Part shown: in pieces, positions 6,906 through 37,469 of the stretch
Layout of the letters: each line of letters starts with the position of its first letter
How positions within the stretch are numbered: position 1 is the first letter of the stretch
Origin: Planctomycetota bacterium
Lineage (GTDB): Bacteria; Planctomycetota; Brocadiia; Brocadiales; Bathyanammoxibiaceae
Length of the DNA: 64,000 nt
Assembly: GCA_016209685.1 (NCBI GenBank)
Contig: JACQVQ010000009.1
Location: 1 to 64,000 of the forward strand
Direction of reading: 5' to 3'
Notes under the pieces: model-generated
What the model was told of the DNA's origin: nothing
Database searches by the model: none
The model's input: the letters and a program-made list of their open reading frames with translations, nothing else
Position numbers and translations under genes: made by a program

Positions 6906-9041
6906 TTACGCCAGGATAAAATCTGCCTCCCTCTTAAAGAAGTCTATGTGGTCAATCTTGACCTTGAGCTCCTGGCCTACACGGAAGACCCTGCCCCTGC
7001 GGTTACCTACCATGGCCATCCGCTTCCTGTCCAGTTTGTAGAAGTCGTCTACAAGGTTGCGGACGTGTACGAGACCATCCAGCAGGAGGTCTTTTAGCTG
7101 TACGAATAGCCCGAACTCCTCCACCCCAGTAATGACCCCCTCCATTGCCTCTCCCACCCTGCCCTCCAGGTGACGGAGGAGCTTCAGTTTGGTAATCTCT
7201 CGCTCTGCCTCATCCGCCCTCCTCTCAGTAAAGGAGCAGTGTTCGGCCAGGTCTGCCAGGCCACCGGAGGTAAATTCATAACTCTCCCTTATCTCCCCGG
7301 GCTTCCGTCTCTCCAGCAAGTAGTGGTCCAGCGTCCTGTGGACAAAGAGGTCTGGGTACCGTCTTATTGGGGAGGTGAAATGGGTGTAATAGTCCATGGC
7401 GAGGGCGAAGTGAGGGCCCCATTTGTCAGAGTATTGGGCCTTCTTGAGGGAGCGGAGGAGGGCCAGGTTCACCTGATAGGCCTCGGGTCTGCCAGCTACC
7501 CGCTTTAACAGGTCCTGGATATGCCGCCTCTTGAAGGGGTCTAGCTTCACCTGCTCCAACTCCTTTATGAATTCGGCAAAATTCCTCATCTCCTCTTCCT
7601 CCGGCTTTGGATGGATACGGGAGAAATAGGGGATGTCTTTCTCGTGCATGAACCTGGCCACTGCCCCATTGGCCGCCAGCATAAACTCCTCAATAAGCTT
7701 GTGGGAGACGTCCCTCTCTACCTTCTCTACCTCCGCCACCCTGCCCGTTTCATCCAGCCTCAAGGAAACCTCTGGGAGGTCCAGCTCCAGTGCCCCATCC
7801 TCTACCCTCCTGGTCCATAGCTTCTGGGCCAACTCCGCCATCTGGGAGAGTAAGTCCCTCACCTCCTCCGGCACCTCAGAGGAGGCCGCTTTATCCTTTG
7901 TAAGGATTTTGCTGGCCTCCTTGTAAGTAAGCCTCTTGGTCACCCTGATAACGGAGTGCCGAATCTCGGAGGAGACGAGCGTCCCCTGGGGGGTAAAGGA
8001 TAGGAAGACCGTTTTGGTTAGCCTATCCACCCCCGCCTTCAGACTGCAGATGCCTGCCGACAGGGGTTCGGGGAGCATTGGGATGACCTCCCCTGGGAAA
8101 TAGACGCTGGTGCCTCGCTTGGAACCCTCCAGGTCTGTGGCCGAGCCAGGCCTGACGTAGTGGGACACGTCGGCTATGTGTACCCCCAGTTTCAGGTGCC
8201 CCCGCCCCAATCTCTCTAGGGAGACGGCATCGTCAAAATCCTTGGCGTCTTCAGGGTCAATGGTAATCGTCAACTTGTCCCTGAGGTCTAATCTCCCCCT
8301 GAGGTCCTCTTCTTTCACCTCCTGGGGCGCCGCCCTTGTCTCTTCTTCTACTTCTGGACTGAACTTATTGGGAAGACGATATTGATACACTACAGAGACG
8401 GTATCCACCCATGGGTCGCCATCCTCTCCCAGCACCTCCACTATCATCCCTTCGGGGGCTAGGTGTCGGGAGGGCCACTGGGTTAGCTTGACTATGACCT
8501 TTTGCCCTGGTCGTGCCCCGGCGGAGTCCTCTTCTGCCACATAGATGTCCCTGAAGAGACAGGAGTCGTCAGGGGCTACGAAGCCCAGGCGGCGGGTACG
8601 CTGATAGGCGCCTATAACGGTCTCATTAACGTGTTCCAGGACGTTGACTATCTGTCCCGAGGCGGCCCGATTCCGTCCGCGGCGTCTGGGGGGCACCCCC
8701 ATAGGAAACCTTGCCACCACGAGGTCATTGTGCATGGCCTGGCCCATGTCCTCTTCTCCTATGTAGACCTCCGGGTAGCCCTCCTTCACTGGCTCTACAA
8801 TGCCATAACCCCTTGGTCTGCAACGCAGCCTCCCTACTACCAGATGTACCTTTTCGGGGATGGCGTATTGCTTTTGTTTTATCTGGACTATCTCACCGAG
8901 GAACTCGAGCTGGCGGAGGAGCTTTTGAAAACCCTCAGACTCCTCTGCTGATGTGCCAAAGTGTTCCGCCAGCGCTGTCGCATTCATGGGGCTGTAGCGG
9001 CGGCCGCGGAGGAACTTGATTAGGTCTTTTGCGTCAACCAT
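6906..9041 (-). CDS. rnr: Ribonuclease R (RNB-family 3'-5' exoribonuclease)
   Basis: A 711-residue RNase II/RNase R protein that degrades RNA processively from the 3' end. Order of domains: an N-terminal winged-helix region (about 1-60), cold-shock-like OB domains (about 70-220), the RNB catalytic domain (about 240-580) with DPEDAKDFDDAVSL bearing the metal-binding aspartates, the signature HFTSPIRRYPDLFVHRTL, and a C-terminal S1 domain (about 625-711, GVITGVEEFGLFVQL). The ATG at 9041 gives the usual length. It lies downstream of the YhaM-like nuclease gene on the same strand, suggesting a small RNA-processing cluster, with a palindromic element between them. Confidence 0.95.
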   Translation of the reverse strand: MVDAKDLIKFLRGRRYSPMNATALAEHFGTSAEESEGFQKLLRQLEFLGEIVQIKQKQYAIPEKVHLVVGRLRCRPRGYGIVEPVKEGYPEVYIGEEDMGQAMHNDLVVARFPMGVPPRRRGRNRAASGQIVNVLEHVNETVIGAYQRTRRLGFVAPDDSCLFRDIYVAEEDSAGARPGQKVIVKLTQWPSRHLAPEGMIVEVLGEDGDPWVDTVSVVYQYRLPNKFSPEVEEETRAAPQEVKEEDLRGRLDLRDKLTITIDPEDAKDFDDAVSLERLGRGHLKLGVHIADVSHYVRPGSATDLEGSKRGTSVYFPGEVIPMLPEPLSAGICSLKAGVDRLTKTVFLSFTPQGTLVSSEIRHSVIRVTKRLTYKEASKILTKDKAASSEVPEEVRDLLSQMAELAQKLWTRRVEDGALELDLPEVSLRLDETGRVAEVEKVERDVSHKLIEEFMLAANGAVARFMHEKDIPYFSRIHPKPEEEEMRNFAEFIKELEQVKLDPFKRRHIQDLLKRVAGRPEAYQVNLALLRSLKKAQYSDKWGPHFALAMDYYTHFTSPIRRYPDLFVHRTLDHYLLERRKPGEIRESYEFTSGGLADLAEHCSFTERRADEAEREITKLKLLRHLEGRVGEAMEGVITGVEEFGLFVQLKDLLLDGLVHVRNLVDDFYKLDRKRMAMVGNRRGRVFRVGQELKVKIDHIDFFKREADFILA

Positions 9042-9044
9042 GGG

Positions 9045-9103
9045 ACTAGGGACTAGGGATTAGGGATTAGGGGTTAGTAGGGGCAGGGTAACCCTGCCCC
9101 TAC
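9045..9103. repeat. Tandem GGGATTA-type words followed by a 27-bp palindrome
   Basis: Near-repeats of GGGACTAGGGATTAGG run from 9045 to 9076, followed by a palindrome with arms GTAGGGGCAGGGT and ACCCTGCCCCTAC (9077-9103). Together they fill the gap between the two nuclease genes. Similar word repeats occur near 35200, 47085, 47220 and 60930. Confidence 0.8.
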
Positions 9104-9118
9104 CTCCCGCGTGCCTGT

Positions 9119-10069
9119 TTATCTGCCTTTTTTATAAAGATGGACATCACCGAACATCTTTTGCCTGGCTGTCCAATGACTCTCAGGGTCTCTGTCCTCG
9201 GCAACGGCCCTCTGGTAGCCCTGGAGCTTGGCGTCCAGGTTGTCCAGGTGGTGCACGGTCAGGGCCTCTGCCATCATTGGCAGCCTGGGGGAATTGTAAT
9301 CCGTCTCGCCGTGGTGGCTCAGGATTATGTGCCTGAGGAGGTCCAGGCGTTCTTGCGGGAATCCCTTTATCTGTATGGCCTTTTCTTCCACCATGAGCAC
9401 CCCGGATATCAGGTGGCCTACGAGCCTCCCATGGTCTGTGTAAGAGAAACCACTCTGATAGGAGAGTTCCCGAAGTTTGCCTATGTCGTGTAATATGGCC
9501 CCCGCCACGAGGAGGTCTCTATCCAGGGTGGGGTAGAGTTTAGAGGTCTGGAGGGCAAGCCTTGCCACTGCCACGGTGTGCTCTAGCAGTCCCCCCAGGT
9601 AGGCATGGTGATAGCTGGTGGAGGCCGGACCAATGCACAATTTACGCATAAATTCCTCGTCCCTTAGAAAGAGTTTGAGGAGTTGAGAGATATAGGGGTC
9701 AGTAAGGCCATTCACTATGTCTTCCAGTTCGGATTGGAGTACCCTCGGGTCCTCCTTGCTCCAGGGGAAGAGGTCCTCCAGGTCAAAGAAGAGTTCTTCC
9801 CTGCTGAAGTTCTTTATCTCTAACTGAGCGGTATTCTTGTACTGCCCCACGACCCCCTGGACTCTGAGTAACCCTTCCTTCCCAAAGGAGTCTATCTGTC
9901 CCTGGCTGACGTCCCACATGACGGCCGGGAGGGTGCCAGATTTATCGGCCAGTTGGGCCTGGATGGAGAGTTTTCCGTTACCGTAGGGGCGGACTTCTCT
10001 ACTATTCAGGCGAAACACCGTATCTACCTGTTCCCCAAGCCTGAACTCGGAGATATACCGCTTTACCAT
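9119..10069 (-). CDS. YhaM-like OB-fold/HD-domain 3'-5' exoribonuclease
   Basis: A 316-residue protein with an N-terminal OB-fold nucleic-acid-binding domain (about 1-95) and a C-terminal HD phosphohydrolase domain (about 155-310). Metal-binding HD elements seen are LLEHTVAVARLA, AGAILHDIGKLREL, HGRLVGHLISG and LSHHG. This architecture is that of the YhaM/CBF1 3'-5' exoribonucleases. The ATG at 10069 is 5 bases after the stop of the GcvH-like gene, so the two are probably co-transcribed. Activity on RNA rather than DNA is inferred from the family. Confidence 0.85.
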   Translation of the reverse strand: MVKRYISEFRLGEQVDTVFRLNSREVRPYGNGKLSIQAQLADKSGTLPAVMWDVSQGQIDSFGKEGLLRVQGVVGQYKNTAQLEIKNFSREELFFDLEDLFPWSKEDPRVLQSELEDIVNGLTDPYISQLLKLFLRDEEFMRKLCIGPASTSYHHAYLGGLLEHTVAVARLALQTSKLYPTLDRDLLVAGAILHDIGKLRELSYQSGFSYTDHGRLVGHLISGVLMVEEKAIQIKGFPQERLDLLRHIILSHHGETDYNSPRLPMMAEALTVHHLDNLDAKLQGYQRAVAEDRDPESHWTARQKMFGDVHLYKKGR

Positions 10070-10074
10070 CTTTT

Positions 10075-10479
10075 CTACTTTAGCTCCCGCTTTATCTTGA
10101 ATATTTGGGCCTCGTACTCATCGGCGCTCAATAGATTATCCTGGGGGAGGGGGCTGGTTAATCTCAACTTTACCAGCCATCCCCTGATGTAAGGGTCCCT
10201 GGTTATCAGGTCTAAATCTTTATACAAGGCATTATTTACCTCCATGACCTCCCCTTCTATAGGGGTTATTATCTCGTGGAGGGCATTTGTAGTCTCCACG
10301 TCCCCGAAGGCCATGCCCATCAGGAGGTCATCCCCTTTGTCCGGGAGGGATAGATCAATTATCTTTCCCAATCCCTCCAGGGCCAATTCTGTCAGGCCAA
10401 TTATGGCAGTACGGCCCTTCACCCTCACCCACTCATGGGTGGGCGTATATTTTAGGTCCTTGGGCAATGTATATGGCAT
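10075..10479 (-). CDS. GcvH-like protein without the lipoyl-attachment lysine
   Basis: A 134-residue protein with the glycine-cleavage H-protein fold: YTPTHEWVRV at the N-terminus, GDVETTNALHEIITPIEGEV in the middle and NNLLSADEYEAQ at the end. Canonical H proteins have ESVKA, where the lysine carries lipoate. Here the text is ETTNA, with an Asn codon AAT (read from 10285-10287). No other gene of the glycine cleavage system is in the window. I chose the ATG at 10479; an in-frame TTG at 10500 would add seven residues. It may be a non-lipoylated paralogue, and its coupling to the nuclease gene may be incidental. A sequencing error is possible, since Asn and Lys codons differ by one base. Confidence 0.8.
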   Translation of the reverse strand: MPYTLPKDLKYTPTHEWVRVKGRTAIIGLTELALEGLGKIIDLSLPDKGDDLLMGMAFGDVETTNALHEIITPIEGEVMEVNNALYKDLDLITRDPYIRGWLVKLRLTSPLPQDNLLSADEYEAQIFKIKRELK

Positions 10480-10586
10480 CCGTCGGCTATCGGTAATCAA
10501 CTATGTGCAATCGGCCAGCATTATAATATATACACTCTGGGGCCGAGACCCAAACTAGGAAAATCTAACAAAATCACCCCTGGAGG

Positions 10587-11555
10587 TCAAGGATATAAAA
10601 TCTCCATAGCCCTTTTTGCCGCCTCTTCCGGCCCTTCCTTCTTTATCTCCAGCCACACGGCCCCGGTAAAACTCCTGAACCAGGTCATCTGCCTCTTAGC
10701 GAAACGACGGGTGTTCCTCTTTATCAGTTCTTTTGCCTCTAATAAGGTCGTCTTACCTTCCAGATATTCCGTTACTTCTGCGTAACCAAGGGCCTCTCTG
10801 GCCTGCCGGCCAAGACCCAGGGGATGGGCCATGAGCCGCCTCACCTCTTCCACTAACCCTTCCTGAAACATCCTTTCTACCCTCTCCTCTATCCGCTGGT
10901 ATAGTTCCCTCCTGTCCAGGGAGAGGATGACCATGCGGAATGTGGAATGAGGATTGCGGATTGCGGAGTTAAATCCCGAACTCCGCATTCCAAACTCCGC
11001 ATTGGAATGCCGCATTCCCCATTCCTGTTGCAGGGAGGATATAGGGTGGCCTGTCTTTTGATAAACTTCCAGTGCCCGGACTACCCGTCGTAAATCACCC
11101 TTTTGTATCTGTTGCGCAGAGGTGGGGTCTACCTCTGCCAGTACGCCGTGGAGGTAGTGGACACCCTTCTCTCTAGCCACACCCTCTAGCTCCTGCCTTA
11201 TCCCCCAGTCTGCCTCTGGCCCTTTAAACAACCCCGCTACCAGGGCCTTTATGTAGAGGGCGGTTCCCCCCACCACCAGGGATTTTTTCCCCTCGGACTC
11301 CGGCTCCCAGACAATCTCTGCCGCATCCTGGACATACCGCCCAGCACTGTAGGCCTCCCAGGGGTCTAGTATATCTATGAGATGGTGGGGTATTTCGCGT
11401 CTTGTCTCCAGGGAGGGTTTGGCCGTGCCAATGTCCATGCCGCGATAAATCTGCATGGAGTCTGCAGAGACAAGCTCTACACCTGCCTGACGGGCAATCT
11501 GGATGGCTACACTACTCTTGCCAATGGCTGTGGGGCCGGTGAGGATTTTTAACAT
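10587..11555 (-). CDS. miaA: tRNA dimethylallyltransferase MiaA with an in-frame repeat insertion
   Basis: Transfers a dimethylallyl group to A37 of tRNAs reading UNN codons. Seen are the P-loop LTGPTAIGKSSVAIQIA, the signature DSMQIYRGMDIGTAKPS, and the C-terminal FAKRQMTWFR. The length of 322 residues fits the family, but about 30 residues (about 178-207, including EFGMRSSGFNSAIRNPHS) are encoded by a low-complexity inverted repeat at 10934-11025 and replace or extend a loop between QQEWG and VILSLDR. The frame stays open across it. The start is the ATG at 11555. Confidence 0.93.
   Translation of the reverse strand: MLKILTGPTAIGKSSVAIQIARQAGVELVSADSMQIYRGMDIGTAKPSLETRREIPHHLIDILDPWEAYSAGRYVQDAAEIVWEPESEGKKSLVVGGTALYIKALVAGLFKGPEADWGIRQELEGVAREKGVHYLHGVLAEVDPTSAQQIQKGDLRRVVRALEVYQKTGHPISSLQQEWGMRHSNAEFGMRSSGFNSAIRNPHSTFRMVILSLDRRELYQRIEERVERMFQEGLVEEVRRLMAHPLGLGRQAREALGYAEVTEYLEGKTTLLEAKELIKRNTRRFAKRQMTWFRSFTGAVWLEIKKEGPEEAAKRAMEILYP
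10934..11025. repeat. Word-type imperfect inverted repeat inside miaA
   Basis: Left arm made of TGCGGAATGTGGAATG and GATTGCGGATTGCGGAG. The right arm is the near-complement, CTCCGCATTCC and ATGCCGCATTCC. About 92 bp, without stop codons in the miaA frame. The same word family appears in frame in addB at 11907-11985. Confidence 0.85.
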
Positions 11556-11584
11556 CTAGCAATGTCTCGTTGTTTTTCTAGATT

Positions 11585-11613
11585 GCAGGGGCAACCTGTC
11601 GGGGTGCCCCTAC
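11585..11613. repeat. Degenerate palindromic element upstream of miaA
   Basis: Arms CAGGGGCAACC and GGGGTGCCCCTAC; the left end is eroded compared with the GTAGGGGC consensus. Confidence 0.6.
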
Positions 11614-11740
11614 TTTTATAAAGGATATTACTGAACATTATAAGAGTCAATAGGGAGTAAATAGTGTAACGGGCCAGAAATCCCTTGACAACTGGCCCAG
11701 GTCGGGAAATAATCCCTAAAGAACATCATTGGCAAGAATT

Positions 11741-11799
11741 TCAAATTACAAATTACAAGTTTCAAATTTTAAATTTGTAATCTGGAATTTGTAATTTGG
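11741..11799. repeat. AT-rich word-type inverted repeat before addB
   Basis: Repeated words TCAAATTACAAATTACAAG are followed by their approximate complement, AATTTGTAATCTGGAATTTG. It reaches to within 13 bases of the proposed addB start and may fold into a hairpin. Confidence 0.75.
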
Positions 11800-11811
11800 T
11801 TTTTAGGAATT

Positions 11812-14800
11812 TTGGTGTCTGAAAAGTCCCTCATCATCGGCAGGGCAGGTTGCGGCAGGACTACACTGTTACTGGAGACCTTCTGTAACAGCATAAAGGC
11901 CCGTACGGAATTCGGAATTAGGAATTCGGGATGCGGAATTAATAAATCAGAACTCCGCACTCCGCACTCCGCACTCCGCACCTCATGTTCCACTGGTGTC
12001 CTCTTCCTCCTCCCCACCCATAGCCAGGTAGAGCACATCAAGGACGTCATTATAAGAAAAGGTTTTGCCCCGGGTTTTATTGAGGAGGGCGTATGCACCT
12101 TCTCTCAACTTGCCAGAGATACCCTGGGGTACAACGGACCCAAGGGGCCGATTACTGAACTGGAAAAGGGGTTTATATTAAGGGAGGCGTTGAGGGGGTC
12201 CGCCTCAGGCGGATTAAAATATTTTAAGGGGGAAGAGGGGGTTCAGGGACTTCACATGGCCCTCCTCAGGTTCATCAAAGAACTTAAGGAGGATGGACAG
12301 TACCCAGCACAGTTCCACAGGGCAGTAAATGAATTCTTGAAGGGGCAGCACACCTTTTTCCCAGAGAAGTATCCAGCCCTGTCGGAGGTCTATTCTCTAT
12401 TCCAGACGGTTCTGGAAAAAAGGGGGCTCCTGGACGAGGACGACCTCCTGAATCAACTCCTCCACTCCCTTGAGGCCGATGAGACCCTGTTGTCCCAAAA
12501 AAGACTCCTCCTAGTAGATGGCTTTCATGACTTTACTCCCGTAGAATTTCGTATCCTCAGGATGCTCATCAAGAGGATACCCAGGGTACTTGTCAGCCTG
12601 GTGCTTGACGCAGAGACAAAGGACTTTCCCACATGTTCACCCCGCTCACCACAAGTTTTTGGGCATTGTCAGGCCGTTTACAAAGAACTCAAATCGCTGG
12701 GGTTAAAACCGCGGCTGCTTCAGGGGTTTCAGCGTTCCACCTCCCCTACTCTGAGGCAGGTAGAAAAGGGTCTCTTCAACCCGGCCACTGAACCCATTGA
12801 GGCCGAGGCCGCCCTGGAGATAGTAGAGGCCGCAGACCTAAGGGATGAGGTGGAACAGATTGCCCGCCGCATCTATAAGATGGTCTCTGGAGGGGAGGCG
12901 AAATACCATGACATAGCCCTCGTATTCAGGGAGATTGCCCTTTATAGGGACGTCATTGAGGCCGTCTTTCACGAGTATAACATCCCTGTGAGGGTTCGTA
13001 CCCGCAGGCCTCTCATTGAAAACCCCCTGGTCAAAGGTGTCCTCTCATTACTCAAGGTATTTGACAATGCCTGGAAGGACGAGGAGGTGCTACATGCCCT
13101 CAAATCCCCCTACACAATGTTGCCCCACCCCGAGGTTGACTCTCTGGAGTATGTAATACTGGAGAGAGGGAGACTGGACTCCAGGGAGGCATGGCTGGCA
13201 CTAATGGAAAATCGCCAGGGTTCGCCTCTCCCACTACAGGCCCTTACATGCCTACCTAAGACGAAAGAATTTATTAAGGACTTAGCAAGAACAGAAAAAG
13301 AACTGGATGGCCCCCACCCCGTCTTCTTCTTCAGGTCCTGGTTACTAAGGCTCATAAATAGATTCCTGTCCCTTCCCGAGGTAGGGGCGTATTGCAATAC
13401 GCCCCTACAACCTTATAGTCATTTACTGAAAGAAGAATCCCAGGGCCTCAGGGCCTTTCTGGAGCTTCTTGACAGACAGTGTCAAATAACCACAGCCTCA
13501 GTAACCTTTGCGGAGTTCTTTAATGACCTCAAGACTAACCTTTCCTCCGGCTTTTATACCCAGAAGGATAAACGGCACGAGGTCATAAACGTAATAGACG
13601 CCCTGGAGGCGAGGCAGTGGGAAAAGCCTGTGGTCTTCGTCGGTGGGCTACTGGAGAAGCAGTTTCCCAGACAGGGGAGGGAGGATATTTTTCTAAAAGA
13701 TAGAGAACGCAGGGACTTCAAGAGGCTCACTGGCGTAGACCTCCAGGAGGTACTCAGGCGTACCCATGAGGAGGAACGGTTTCTCTTTTATGTGGCCCTT
13801 ACCCGGGCCCAGAAGAGACTCATACTCTCTTACCCCGCTACGGATGGCCAGGGTAGGCCCACCCTGCCTTCTTTCTACCTGGAGGAGGTGAAGAGGCTCT
13901 TTACCCCCGAATCCTACAAGAAGGTCTTCCATAAGAGGTCCCCTGGTGATTTTGTCCCAAGACCTCAGGAGATACTAACCCAGAAAGACCTGAGGGATTT
14001 TGTCTTTCATAACCTGACCACCCCCCACCCACCACAGGTGGACATAGTGCGCGGGGTCTACAACCGCGAATCGTGCAAAAAGACTCCCTGGCTGGAGGGC
14101 CTGAGGATAGCCTTAGAGAGACCAGGAGAAGGGGAGTTGGGGGCCGCAGACGGCCTCAAGGAGATAATGTCCTCCTTTAGCGCCACACAGCTTAGTGACT
14201 ACGCCCAGTGTCCCTTTCTCCACTTCTGCAGGTGGGTCCTTAGACTGAAACCACTACCCAACCGGGCCGAGGAGGGCCTGAGTCCTACCCTTCAGGGAGG
14301 GATTGTCCATGAGACACTGCAACGTTACTACTCCGAGCTTGCCGTTAATAAATCCGCCCCATCCATTACAAGTCTTGAGGCCCACTTCCAGGAATCCTTT
14401 GCCACTAGGACCAGGGGTATCCCCCTGGGATTTAAGGAAGAGAAGCTCAAGAGGGAGATGCTCCAGGCCCTCAAGGCCTTTGCCGAGCAGGACAGGGAAT
14501 TTATCACAAAATCTGCCTTCAGACCTAGATATGCTGAGGTAGGTTTTGGGAAAGAGACGGCTGACGAGTCACTTGCCGTACATCTTGTTACATATGGGGA
14601 CGTCAGTACGCCCACCTCTCTCCCTCCGCTTGAACTCAGGGACAAGAAGGGGAACAGGGTCAGACTGACTGGCAGGATAGACAGGATAGACGTAGCAGAG
14701 ATGGACGACGAGACCCTGGGCCTGGTCATAGACTACAAGTACAGTAAAGAGGCGGCCAACGGGAACAAACTAATAAAAGACCTCAAGGAGGGAAACGACC

Positions 14801-15120
14801 TGCAACTACCCATCTACGTAATGGTAGCCAGGGACCTCCTGGGGCTAAGACCAGTGGGCGCCCAATTCTATTCCCTCAGACCCCCTGGGAGGAGCGGTAT
14901 AATAGCCTTACCCCTACCCAATAAGGGCGAACACATGTCACAGGAAGATATGGAAGCCCTCCTGGAATCCTGCAAGGAACACCTGTTTAGACAAGTGGAG
15001 GGTATCCTGGCAGGGGATAAGAGGGTCAGTCCCAGGGACGTCCAGTATTGCCATAACTGGTGTGGATATAAAGATGTTTGCAGATTTGAGAGAGGACACC
15101 GCAAGAGACATGAAGGATAA
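11812..15120 (+). CDS. addB: AddB-like helicase-nuclease subunit (Fe-S PD-(D/E)XK nuclease)
   Basis: An 1102-residue UvrD/Rep-like helicase fused to a C-terminal RecB-type nuclease, as in AddB of double-strand-break repair. The N-terminal P-loop reads GRAGCGRTTLL, with Arg (residue 16) in place of the Walker lysine. The helicase text VALTRAQKRLIL is intact. The nuclease shows LVIDYKYS near residue 970, and the Fe-S cysteines appear as QCPFLHFC and CHNWCGYKDVC. The proposed start is TTG 11812 or GTG 11815, with a weak AGGAA upstream. Three repeat insertions lie in frame: a word-type repeat (residues about 32-58), a CCGCCTCAGGCGG element (about 129-134) and a 28-bp palindrome (523-532, VGAYCNTPLQ). 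It overlaps or abuts addA. Confidence 0.88.
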   Translation: MVSEKSLIIGRAGCGRTTLLLETFCNSIKARTEFGIRNSGCGINKSELRTPHSALRTSCSTGVLFLLPTHSQVEHIKDVIIRKGFAPGFIEEGVCTFSQLARDTLGYNGPKGPITELEKGFILREALRGSASGGLKYFKGEEGVQGLHMALLRFIKELKEDGQYPAQFHRAVNEFLKGQHTFFPEKYPALSEVYSLFQTVLEKRGLLDEDDLLNQLLHSLEADETLLSQKRLLLVDGFHDFTPVEFRILRMLIKRIPRVLVSLVLDAETKDFPTCSPRSPQVFGHCQAVYKELKSLGLKPRLLQGFQRSTSPTLRQVEKGLFNPATEPIEAEAALEIVEAADLRDEVEQIARRIYKMVSGGEAKYHDIALVFREIALYRDVIEAVFHEYNIPVRVRTRRPLIENPLVKGVLSLLKVFDNAWKDEEVLHALKSPYTMLPHPEVDSLEYVILERGRLDSREAWLALMENRQGSPLPLQALTCLPKTKEFIKDLARTEKELDGPHPVFFFRSWLLRLINRFLSLPEVGAYCNTPLQPYSHLLKEESQGLRAFLELLDRQCQITTASVTFAEFFNDLKTNLSSGFYTQKDKRHEVINVIDALEARQWEKPVVFVGGLLEKQFPRQGREDIFLKDRERRDFKRLTGVDLQEVLRRTHEEERFLFYVALTRAQKRLILSYPATDGQGRPTLPSFYLEEVKRLFTPESYKKVFHKRSPGDFVPRPQEILTQKDLRDFVFHNLTTPHPPQVDIVRGVYNRESCKKTPWLEGLRIALERPGEGELGAADGLKEIMSSFSATQLSDYAQCPFLHFCRWVLRLKPLPNRAEEGLSPTLQGGIVHETLQRYYSELAVNKSAPSITSLEAHFQESFATRTRGIPLGFKEEKLKREMLQALKAFAEQDREFITKSAFRPRYAEVGFGKETADESLAVHLVTYGDVSTPTSLPPLELRDKKGNRVRLTGRIDRIDVAEMDDETLGLVIDYKYSKEAANGNKLIKDLKEGNDLQLPIYVMVARDLLGLRPVGAQFYSLRPPGRSGIIALPLPNKGEHMSQEDMEALLESCKEHLFRQVEGILAGDKRVSPRDVQYCHNWCGYKDVCRFERGHRKRHEG
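11907..11985. repeat. Word-type inverted repeat inside addB
   Basis: GGAATTCGGAATTAGG and variants, followed by CTCCGCACTCCGCACTCC. Read in frame as text including EFGIRNSGCGINKSELR, which resembles the peptide encoded by the insertion in miaA. Confidence 0.85.
12199..12213. repeat. Short CCGCCTCAGGCGG palindrome inside addB
   Basis: TCCGCCTCAGGCGGA, read as GSASGG in the addB frame. The same core recurs near 26870, 27495, 31872, 35308 and 37365, with variants at 19623 and 52170. Confidence 0.75.
13381..13408. repeat. 28-bp palindromic element inside addB
   Basis: Arms GTAGGGGCGTATT and AATACGCCCCTAC around GC. Read in frame as VGAYCNTPLQ. Confidence 0.9.
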
Positions 15121-27546: not shown

Positions 27547-28302
27547 GTGAAAAGAAAGACCGCATCTCTTGTCCTGGCAGGGATTCTTATCCTTCTACAG
27601 GCAAGCAGTCTTTCAGGTCAGACCCTCTTAGTAGCGGCCGCCTCTAGCATGAGGGATGCCCTGGAAGAAGTCGCTGCCGAATTTGAAAAGGGCTCAGGCT
27701 ATAAAACAAATTTTACCTTTGGCTCCAGTGGTCTCCTGGCCCACGAGATTGAGAGTGGGGTACCTTACGACCTTTATGTAGCCGCCGGGGCCAATTTTAT
27801 ACAGGAACTCTACCACAGAAGACTCCTCGTACAAGGCACCTCTAATGTAATTTGCAGGGGGAGGCTGGTTATCATAGTCAGAAAGGACTCGCCAAGAAAG
27901 ATAGACAGGCTTCAAGACATAACCAACTTCTCCTTAATTGCCATTGCGAACCCCCAGCACGCCCCCTATGGAAAGGCGGCCCAGGAGGCCCTGCAAAATG
28001 CAGGCCTGTGGATAGGGCTACAAAACCGAATCCTTTACACGGAGCGAGTGACGGACATCCTTGAACTGGTGGAGACAGGAAGGGTGCCGGTTGGGATTGG
28101 GGCACAATCCCTTAGGGCCTCTGCTCAGGTGGAGTACGTCCCTGTAGAGGATAAATTGTACGCCGCTCCCGAGACCTATATCGCCATGGTGAAGGGTACC
28201 TTACATAAAGAGGAGGCTAGGGCCTTCATCGGCTTCCTGGCCAGCGATAAAGGGATGACCATCTTAAAGGAGTACGGCTTCTCAGTAGACAGCAAACAGT
28301 AG
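27547..28302 (+). CDS. modA: Molybdate ABC transporter substrate-binding protein ModA
   Basis: About 251 residues, periplasmic. The signal peptide runs MKRKTASLVLAGILILLQAS and is followed by LLVAAASSMRDALEEVAAEF, the ModA N-terminal signature, then FGSSGLLAHEIESGVPYDLY, which forms the oxyanion pocket, and a C-terminal FIGFLASDKGMTILKEYGF. I chose GTG 27547: the earlier ATG 27514 lies in a repeat element and would give an unusual leader. No modB or modC is in the window, so the permease must be elsewhere. The gene's last codons run into an inverted repeat (SVDSKQ). Confidence 0.88.
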   Translation: MKRKTASLVLAGILILLQASSLSGQTLLVAAASSMRDALEEVAAEFEKGSGYKTNFTFGSSGLLAHEIESGVPYDLYVAAGANFIQELYHRRLLVQGTSNVICRGRLVIIVRKDSPRKIDRLQDITNFSLIAIANPQHAPYGKAAQEALQNAGLWIGLQNRILYTERVTDILELVETGRVPVGIGAQSLRASAQVEYVPVEDKLYAAPETYIAMVKGTLHKEEARAFIGFLASDKGMTILKEYGFSVDSKQ

Positions 28303-28357
28303 ACAGTAGACAGGGGAAACCACTATCCCTGTATGCTGTCTACTGACTACTGTCTAC
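28288..28357. repeat. Word-type inverted repeat between modA and trmD
   Basis: AACAGTAGACAGTAGACAGG is mirrored by CTGTCTACTGACTACTGTCT. It spans the convergent 3' ends of modA and trmD and may act as a bidirectional terminator-like hairpin. Confidence 0.8.
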
Positions 28358-29064
28358 TCCTTTAACAGGTCAGGTCTTCTCTGGCGGGTGCGGAGCCTTG
28401 CCTGCTCCAGACGCCATTTTCTTATCTTTTCGTGGTCCCCGGATAACAGCACCTCTGGCACACTCATGCCTCTGAACTCCCTGGGCCGGGTGTATTGGGG
28501 ATACTCCAGGAGTACAGGGGGTTCCCCCAGCATCTCACTGAAGGATTCGCTTACGGTAGAAAACTCGTCTCCCAACGCCCCAGGGATAAGCCTCACTAGC
28601 GCATCTATTATCACCATGGCAGGGACCTCTCCCCCACTCAGGACGTAGTCCCCTATGGAGACCTCCAGGAAATCAAAGCCTTGTCTTATCCTTTCATCAA
28701 ATCCCTCATAATGCCCGCAGAGGAGCATGAGGCGGGGCTCCCTGGCAAGCTCCCTGGCCATGGATTGATTAAATCTCGCACCCTGCGGGCAGAGGAGGAT
28801 TTTTCTTGGTGGCACCGTCACCGTCCCCGACACCTCCTTCTCCACCTCTTCTATTGCCCTGAAGACAGGCTCTGGTCTGAGGACCATCCCGGGCCCTCCG
28901 CCAAAGGGTCTGTCATCCACTTTCTTATGCTTGTCTTGAGTAAAATCCCTTATATTCCAGAGGTGAAATTCCACCAGCCCCTTCTCCTGGGCAATCCCCA
29001 GGATACTGTGTCCGAGGAAGGCAGGAAATACCTCTGGGAAGAGGGTAAGGATGTCTATATGCAT
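28354..29064 (-). CDS. trmD: tRNA (guanine-N1)-methyltransferase TrmD
   Basis: Methylates G37 of tRNAs reading CNN codons. The N-terminus [20 protein letters not shown] and [20 protein letters not shown], and the SPOUT knot [14 protein letters not shown] and [14 protein letters not shown], are diagnostic. 236 residues is the usual length. It stands alone, without rpsP, rimM or rplS as neighbours, which is the common arrangement elsewhere. Start ATG at 29064. Confidence 0.95.
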
Positions 29065-37362: not shown

Positions 37363-37469
37363 CCGTTCGCCTCAGGCGGATAACCCTGATTAACCTATAG
37401 AACTACTACTAGTTATCAGTTGTCAGTTTTCAGTCTTCTGACAACTGGCAACTGACAACTGGTTACTAG
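37363..37469. repeat. CCGCCTCAGGCGG-type repeat and a word-type inverted repeat
   Basis: TTCGCCTCAGGCGGAT (about 37367-37382) is followed by CAGTTGTCAGTTTTCAG, mirrored by CTGACAACTGGC and AACTGACAACTGG (37402-37469). It lies just before leuC. Confidence 0.75.

Follow-up and report, generated by a model that had tools for sequence, protein, structure and literature searches.

Two palindromic inserts in adjacent genes

The window (the whole stretch of DNA analysed, bases 1-64000 of contig 9) belongs to a 2.02-Mb genome in 14 contigs, labelled G000 here, whose nearest named records are Planctomycetes bacterium RIFCSPHIGHO2_12_FULL_52_36 and Candidatus Brocadiaceae isolate Yes70-17. In the window miaA and an addB-like gene lie on opposite strands, each with an in-frame insert, an imperfect palindrome built of 7-bp tandem units in two inverted arms (Table 1). 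In miaA the units run CGGAATG, TGGAATG, AGGATTG, CGGATTG and CGGAGTT, followed by the spacer and the inverse, and the insert is translated in frame as QQEWGMRHSNAEFGMRSSGFNSAIRNPHSTFRMVILSL. In addB the same arrangement begins with CGGAATT, CGGAATT, AGGAATT, CGGGATG and CGGAATT, and the insert encodes KARTEFGIRNSGCGINKSELRTPHSALRTSCSTGVLF. The original prediction, that repeat words of one kind and their complements occur within both genes and form related inserts on opposite strands, thus holds at both places. It had further described them as the same insert, which is correct in that both belong to one unit family (CGGANTN) and incorrect if taken to mean duplicates of a single sequence. The two genes match each other in inverted orientation over at most 30 nt, at 83% identity.

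Table 1. Coordinates of the genes, inserts and heptad arrays in the window
Feature	Position	Strand	Details
miaA ORF	10587..11555	minus	322 aa; insert in frame
miaA insert, CGGANTN heptad palindrome	~10935..11018	minus	~MiaA residues 180-207
miaA insert parts			left arm 10936-10970; spacer 10971-10977; right arm 10978-11018
addB-like ORF	11812..15120	plus	1102 aa; insert in frame
addB insert, imperfect palindrome of CGGANTN units	11904..11994	plus	91 nt
addB insert parts			left arm 11906-11940; spacer 11941-11949; right arm 11950-11983; non-repeat tail to 11994
AT-rich heptad palindrome, CAAATTA units	11739..11798		between miaA and addB
GGGANTA heptad arm, then GTAG-type REP	9041..9103		REP at 9077-9103
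CAGTAGN heptad palindrome	28282..28359
CAGTTGT heptad palindrome	37406..37469

Both inserts fall where MiaA and AddB fail to align with their solved relatives. In AddB the position follows the N-terminal helix (itself preceded by a nucleotide-binding-like motif) and precedes the next strand. The AlphaFold2 model of MiaA retains an intact fold with most residues outside the insert confidently placed, while residues 181-203, between helix 172-182 and strand 206-212, have pLDDT values <50; the structural check proposed with the prediction thus places the insert in a loop, which is predicted to be disordered.

Homologues show the inserts to be acquired rather than ancestral, as had been anticipated. 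Two congener records (L039, L040) have an undamaged addB without the insert, whose 91 nt in G000 take the place of about 10 nt (net +81 nt), and target duplication is not visible at the junctions. At the miaA position the congeners G001 and G002 have in common an AAGGTTC-type heptad array that differs from the one in G000, G006 and G009 carry REP-type palindromes (a nested REP and a GTAGGGGCAGGTTTAAAACCCGCCCCTAC REP, respectively), and only a short loop is present in the other relatives examined. The interpretation of the two inserts as acquired, related inverted repeats is supported. An assembly artefact is unlikely, since separately assembled genomes have arrays and junctions in common (miaA in G001 and G002; uvrA in G001 and G006).

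Palindromes of other kinds are also present. The addB gene contains a TCCGCCTCAGGCGGA palindrome (12199-12213) and a GTAGGGGCGTATTGCAATACGCCCCTAC REP (13381-13408, encoding VGAYCNTPLQ), and thus three different palindromic inserts in all. GTAG-type REPs occur seven times in the window (6051, 9077, 13381, 16431, 51882, 61027 and 63636), four of them being identical (GTAGGGGCACGTTGCAACGTGCCCCTAC).

Heptad arrays are dispersed through the genome

The miaA/addB pair is a small part of a system that extends over the whole genome, with hundreds of such inserts. A period scan of the window returned six segments of period 7 and none of periods 2-6 or 8-13, with none in shuffled sequence. In a 464-kb sample of G000 (the window plus 20 stretches of 20 kb, 23% of the genome) the scan returned 94 arrays of period 7, whereas periods 4-6 and 8-12 gave 0-10 apiece, with a harmonic at 14. 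Searched over the full 2.02 Mb with at most 2 mismatches, the pattern GGAATTCGGAATTCGG gave 82 matches compared with 6 for its reversed control, and the word family, for which a genome-wide search had been suggested, is dispersed and recurs in frame in uvrA, hypF (twice) and hypE. Going beyond the original prediction, the inserts represent one of at least six heptad families, including CGGANTN (A), GGGANTA (B), ACAGGNN, CAGTAGN, AATTGNA or CAAATTA, and (G/C)ACTANG, and sister genomes hold other palindromes at the same sites. GTAG REPs are abundant in this genome as a class separate from the heptad arrays, which have neither a GTAG/CGTC tag nor fixed ends.

Arrays number 20-22 per 100 kb in both G000 and G001 and 19 in the distant G009 (from 26 kb only), compared with 0-5 in the other Brocadiales sampled (most from 20-40 kb only). 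The palindromes of G009, a member of another family of the order, are equally dense but built of other units (CGTGACT, GGCTGAA; L137 and L149), which suggests an independent expansion. The CGGANTN word is found in 110 of 392 genomes of the phylum, in a very patchy distribution with a few strong expansions; in G113 and G201 the reversed control matches as well, a hint of further heptad families there.

Anatomy of the palindromes

An inverted-repeat score of at least 15 was reached by 71 of 187 arrays from two genomes and by one control region. Palindromes with both arms periodic number 73 in ~928 kb of these two genomes, and the strand that runs towards the centre is G-rich in 68 of the 73 and C-rich in 4 (P ~2e-16). 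Within internal units, with anchors picked by eye, the constant positions are 85-100% conserved and the variable ones ~38-73%; an unsupervised test for concentration of the variation in unit columns gave a weak effect (2.95 columns observed, 3.21 expected), and arms with two such columns prefer adjacent ones (34 of 52, P = 2e-6). GGG tracts, which could form G-quadruplexes, are confined to family B and are lacking from families A, C, D and E, the miaA and addB inserts included.

The variable positions were further compared between the arms of one palindrome and between arms of different palindromes (4 to 11 palindromes per family). Own-arm and cross-arm identities were.59 and.59 in family A,.18 and.30 in C,.56 and.52 in F,.53 and.41 in E, and.61 and.38 in B, so that an arm agrees with its partner about as well as with another palindrome in A, C and F and somewhat better in E and B. 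With own arms agreeing at most somewhat better than cross arms, neither arm is a copy of its partner, and fold-back copying is rejected.

Reading frame and genomic placement

In-frame palindromes interrupt unrelated genes (miaA, addB, uvrA, hypF and hypE), and the length differences at the five coding sites compared (81, 93, 96, 15 and 24 nt) are all multiples of 3. The hypF gene (L068:9244-11841) carries two in-frame heptad palindromes, at the second of which half a GTAG REP adjoins the array; hypE (L068:6786-7886) combines a heptad insert with a REP-derived peptide, VGAYCNTPLL. All six reading frames of CGGANTN are open, whereas family F units leave none open. Correspondingly more CGGANTN arrays lie within ORFs, 16 of 31 compared with 20 of 156 for the other families (P = 6e-6).

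Between genes, arrays lie in 42 tandem, 11 convergent and 12 divergent settings, tracking the numbers of such gaps (145, 39 and 46), so that a regulatory role is unsupported. This lack of a preferred gene-pair context gives no sign of a terminator role either, none of the heptad palindromes at 9000-13500 scored as terminator-like, and an Rfam search returned no match apart from a tRNA.

Occupants of orthologous sites are exchanged

To follow individual sites, the flanks of G000 arrays were located in G001 and in further congener sequence, which is ~92% identical; the counts rest on the sampled parts of the genomes (about a third of G001), and 21 orthologous sites were classed by eye from the alignments, so that the numbers are approximate. 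Unrelated palindromes occupy the same flanks at ~9 of the 21 (miaA, window 11734, L067:4173, L068:6705, hypE, uvrA, L080:17305, L095:9660 and L101:1182). At ~5 the outer parts are kept and the inside differs (window 9037, L067:6205, L074:2756, L092:5705 and hypF site 1), ~4 have homologous arrays (L062:3688, L067:10197, L074:1935 and L080:14188), and 3 are empty in the congener (addB, L067:7717 and hypF site 2). Two examples flank the genes described above: the CAAATTA palindrome between miaA and addB is replaced by a TCCGCCTCAGGCGGA palindrome in congeners, and the counterpart of the GGGANTA arm and its REP is, in one congener, a heptad arm with an AT-rich heptad palindrome. Random insertion into non-coding DNA predicts that ~1 of 12 non-homologous sites would coincide, whereas 9 of 12 do; with a rough null, P is ~2e-7 at a chance of ~10% and 2e-3 at 30%.

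In uvrA the succession can be read directly. The gene is without an insert in three genera (G003, G004 and G005), which have SQEKRxxW-like loops; G006 and G001 carry a homologous CAGTAAG palindrome, and G000 and G002 a CGGAATG palindrome at the same junctions. An inherited CAGTAAG palindrome has been replaced, in frame, by a CGGAATG one. A copy of the uvrA array at C11:57441 is 95% identical over 88 nt between differing flanks, and several more are 86-92% identical, while the addB array has no other match in the genome above ~84% over most of its length. Copying of whole palindromes thus occurs, yet it does not visibly explain every array. Arrays shared by G000 and G001 differ mainly by substitutions and not by unit number.

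Neither fixed ends nor target duplications are visible at the empty sites of addB and hypF (junctions can be seen at only three empty sites), and the combination of IS terminal inverted repeats with target site duplication that marks MITEs is not seen in the heptad arrays. In the G001 counterpart of L067:10197 (L092 ~14714-14870), a conserved AT-rich heptad palindrome has one of its arms interrupted by a ~160-bp palindromic element. The latter is flanked by a 6-bp AATCTG duplication and is a true insertion with target duplication.

A proposed model for origin and turnover

The arrays are specific to lineages and take the place of a few native bases, and genes contain them only if the reading frame remains open. 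Where a site is occupied, a sister genome often has a palindrome of unrelated sequence there, and sometimes the outer arms persist around a different centre. The reading that we tentatively prefer, and that covers most of the observations, is that they are short selfish or neutral palindromic elements of degenerate 7-bp units, turning over through breakage and repair. An extruded hairpin or cruciform would break at its centre and the broken ends would be trimmed; repair would then copy or capture another palindrome, whether heptad array or REP, so that the new occupant of the site could belong to any family, and rare breaks elsewhere would create new sites. Within proteins, elements would survive only at loop positions accepting 20-35 extra residues, and such tolerance would be why MiaA, AddB, UvrA, HypF and HypE retain theirs. 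Against the model, re-use of sites in genes may partly reflect the scarcity of insert-tolerant positions. Consistent with this model are the empty addB site, the lengths in multiples of 3, the uvrA series, the classes among the 21 sites, the 95% identical uvrA copy, the REP/array junction in hypF and the frame bias; against it, the sequence comparisons contain no break, cruciform or repair intermediate. In complete family switches (uvrA, miaA), moreover, the old arms leave no trace, so that homology-guided copying alone is insufficient to account for them. The model also leaves the period of 7 outside what it explains, and SbcD, considered with loss of SbcCD as a permissive cause, was not detected in array-rich genomes nor in many array-poor ones.

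A somewhat unlikely alternative is that the arrays are non-autonomous MITE- or REP-like elements moved in trans by a transposase (e.g. RAYT) that favours existing palindromes or single-stranded hairpins. Copies limited to the element, found at unlinked positions with identities of up to 95%, would be expected in that case, as would nested insertion and the repeated use of the same sites, and the genome has abundant REPs and three Y1_Tnp matches. However, heptad arrays lack fixed termini, the GTAG tag and visible target duplications, whereas the ~160-bp element that G001 carries at L067:10197 has its 6-bp duplication. Moreover, Y1_Tnp copy number does not track arrays across genomes (G015 has 31 Y1_Tnp and a single heptad-word match), and the transposase would have to recognize each of at least six unrelated unit families.

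A further reading, which we regard as improbable, is a dedicated or semi-dedicated process in these bacteria that writes degenerate heptads on both ends of a broken palindrome, such that the site stays a palindrome over evolutionary time while its family is exchanged. Such sites would be heritable hairpins with a sequence replaced time after time, in essential genes too. Telomere-like de novo synthesis of heptads on the 3' ends at a break, which are then joined to give (unit)n and its inverse, is quite improbable. It would account for the G-rich inward strand (68 of 72 palindromes), the almost independent draw of variable positions by the two arms and the addB array without a close copy, but RVT_1 reverse transcriptase was not detected in G000-G004 or G006-G009, array-rich genomes among them, the uvrA array has its long 95% identical copy, and several families per genome would need several templates.

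Growth in place of ordinary simple-sequence repeats by 7-nt polymerase slippage is very unlikely: heptads are the commonest long class of such repeats in many bacteria, with a polymerase footprint proposed in earlier work cited in PMC4679880, but here unlinked loci have units in common, the arms form inverted pairs, the arrays also present in G001 vary mainly by substitution and whole families switch at one site, all of which is poorly compatible with slippage. Retention for a function, such as binding of proteins to a fixed core that recurs every 7 bp, termination of transcription or provision of useful protein loops, is highly unlikely, for although the cores of the units vary far less than the variable positions and the palindromes could form RNA hairpins, intergenic placement follows gap counts, orthologous sites conserve neither sequence nor family and receive unrelated replacements, and the MiaA insert is predicted to be disordered.

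Relation to known repeats

A close likeness is to the heptameric repeats (GGGANTN)n of Xanthomonas and GGGGA(T/C)T of Nostoc (Rehm et al. 2015, PMC4692102). They are 7-11% intragenic, and in Xanthomonas 70 (Xcc) and 75 (Xac) pairs are inverted and convergent (PMC4692102). Dispersal, convergent pairs and 7-bp units with a constant core and variable positions are common to both (GGGANTA corresponds to family B, CGGANTN to family A). That work followed a single unit family in each genome, whereas at least six coexist here, ~1/5 of arrays lie in ORFs, orthologous sites hold different families and most families are without GGG tracts. The TAACTGA heptamers of Beggiatoaceae and cyanobacteria, although dispersed, comprise one unit only and are nearly all direct and upstream of start codons, with a single inverted case (PMC4679880).

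Rickettsia palindromic elements form ~150-bp families, some ending in CGTC, and likewise enter many unrelated housekeeping genes in frame, adding tens of residues; the portions of these descriptions available to us mention neither a 7-bp periodicity nor in-place family replacement (PMC10969869, PMC3733652). GTAG/CGTC REPs with their RAYTs also lie within genes, notably uvrA and recB, and in recB two Xanthomonas species carry different REPs in roughly the same position (PMC3733652). Palindromes in genes, notably uvrA, and a Y1_Tnp transposase in the genome are thus common to both systems, but the heptad arrays have no fixed 20-40 bp stem and lack the tag of RAYT-mobilised REPs. A literature search by the exact repeat words returned no paper. 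What is new is the presence of several unit families per genome, the switching of family at fixed sites between close relatives, and the empty, old and new states of the same gene.

Heptad repeats are known in many bacteria without an account of their origin. The three close genomes (~92% identical where compared) supply many before/after sites, including empty ones and in-gene switches such as that in uvrA, and origin and turnover are therefore directly testable. In these bacteria, conserved enzymes gain loops of 20-35 residues from non-coding palindromes at repeatable positions, and in-frame survival hinges on which repeat family has open frames.
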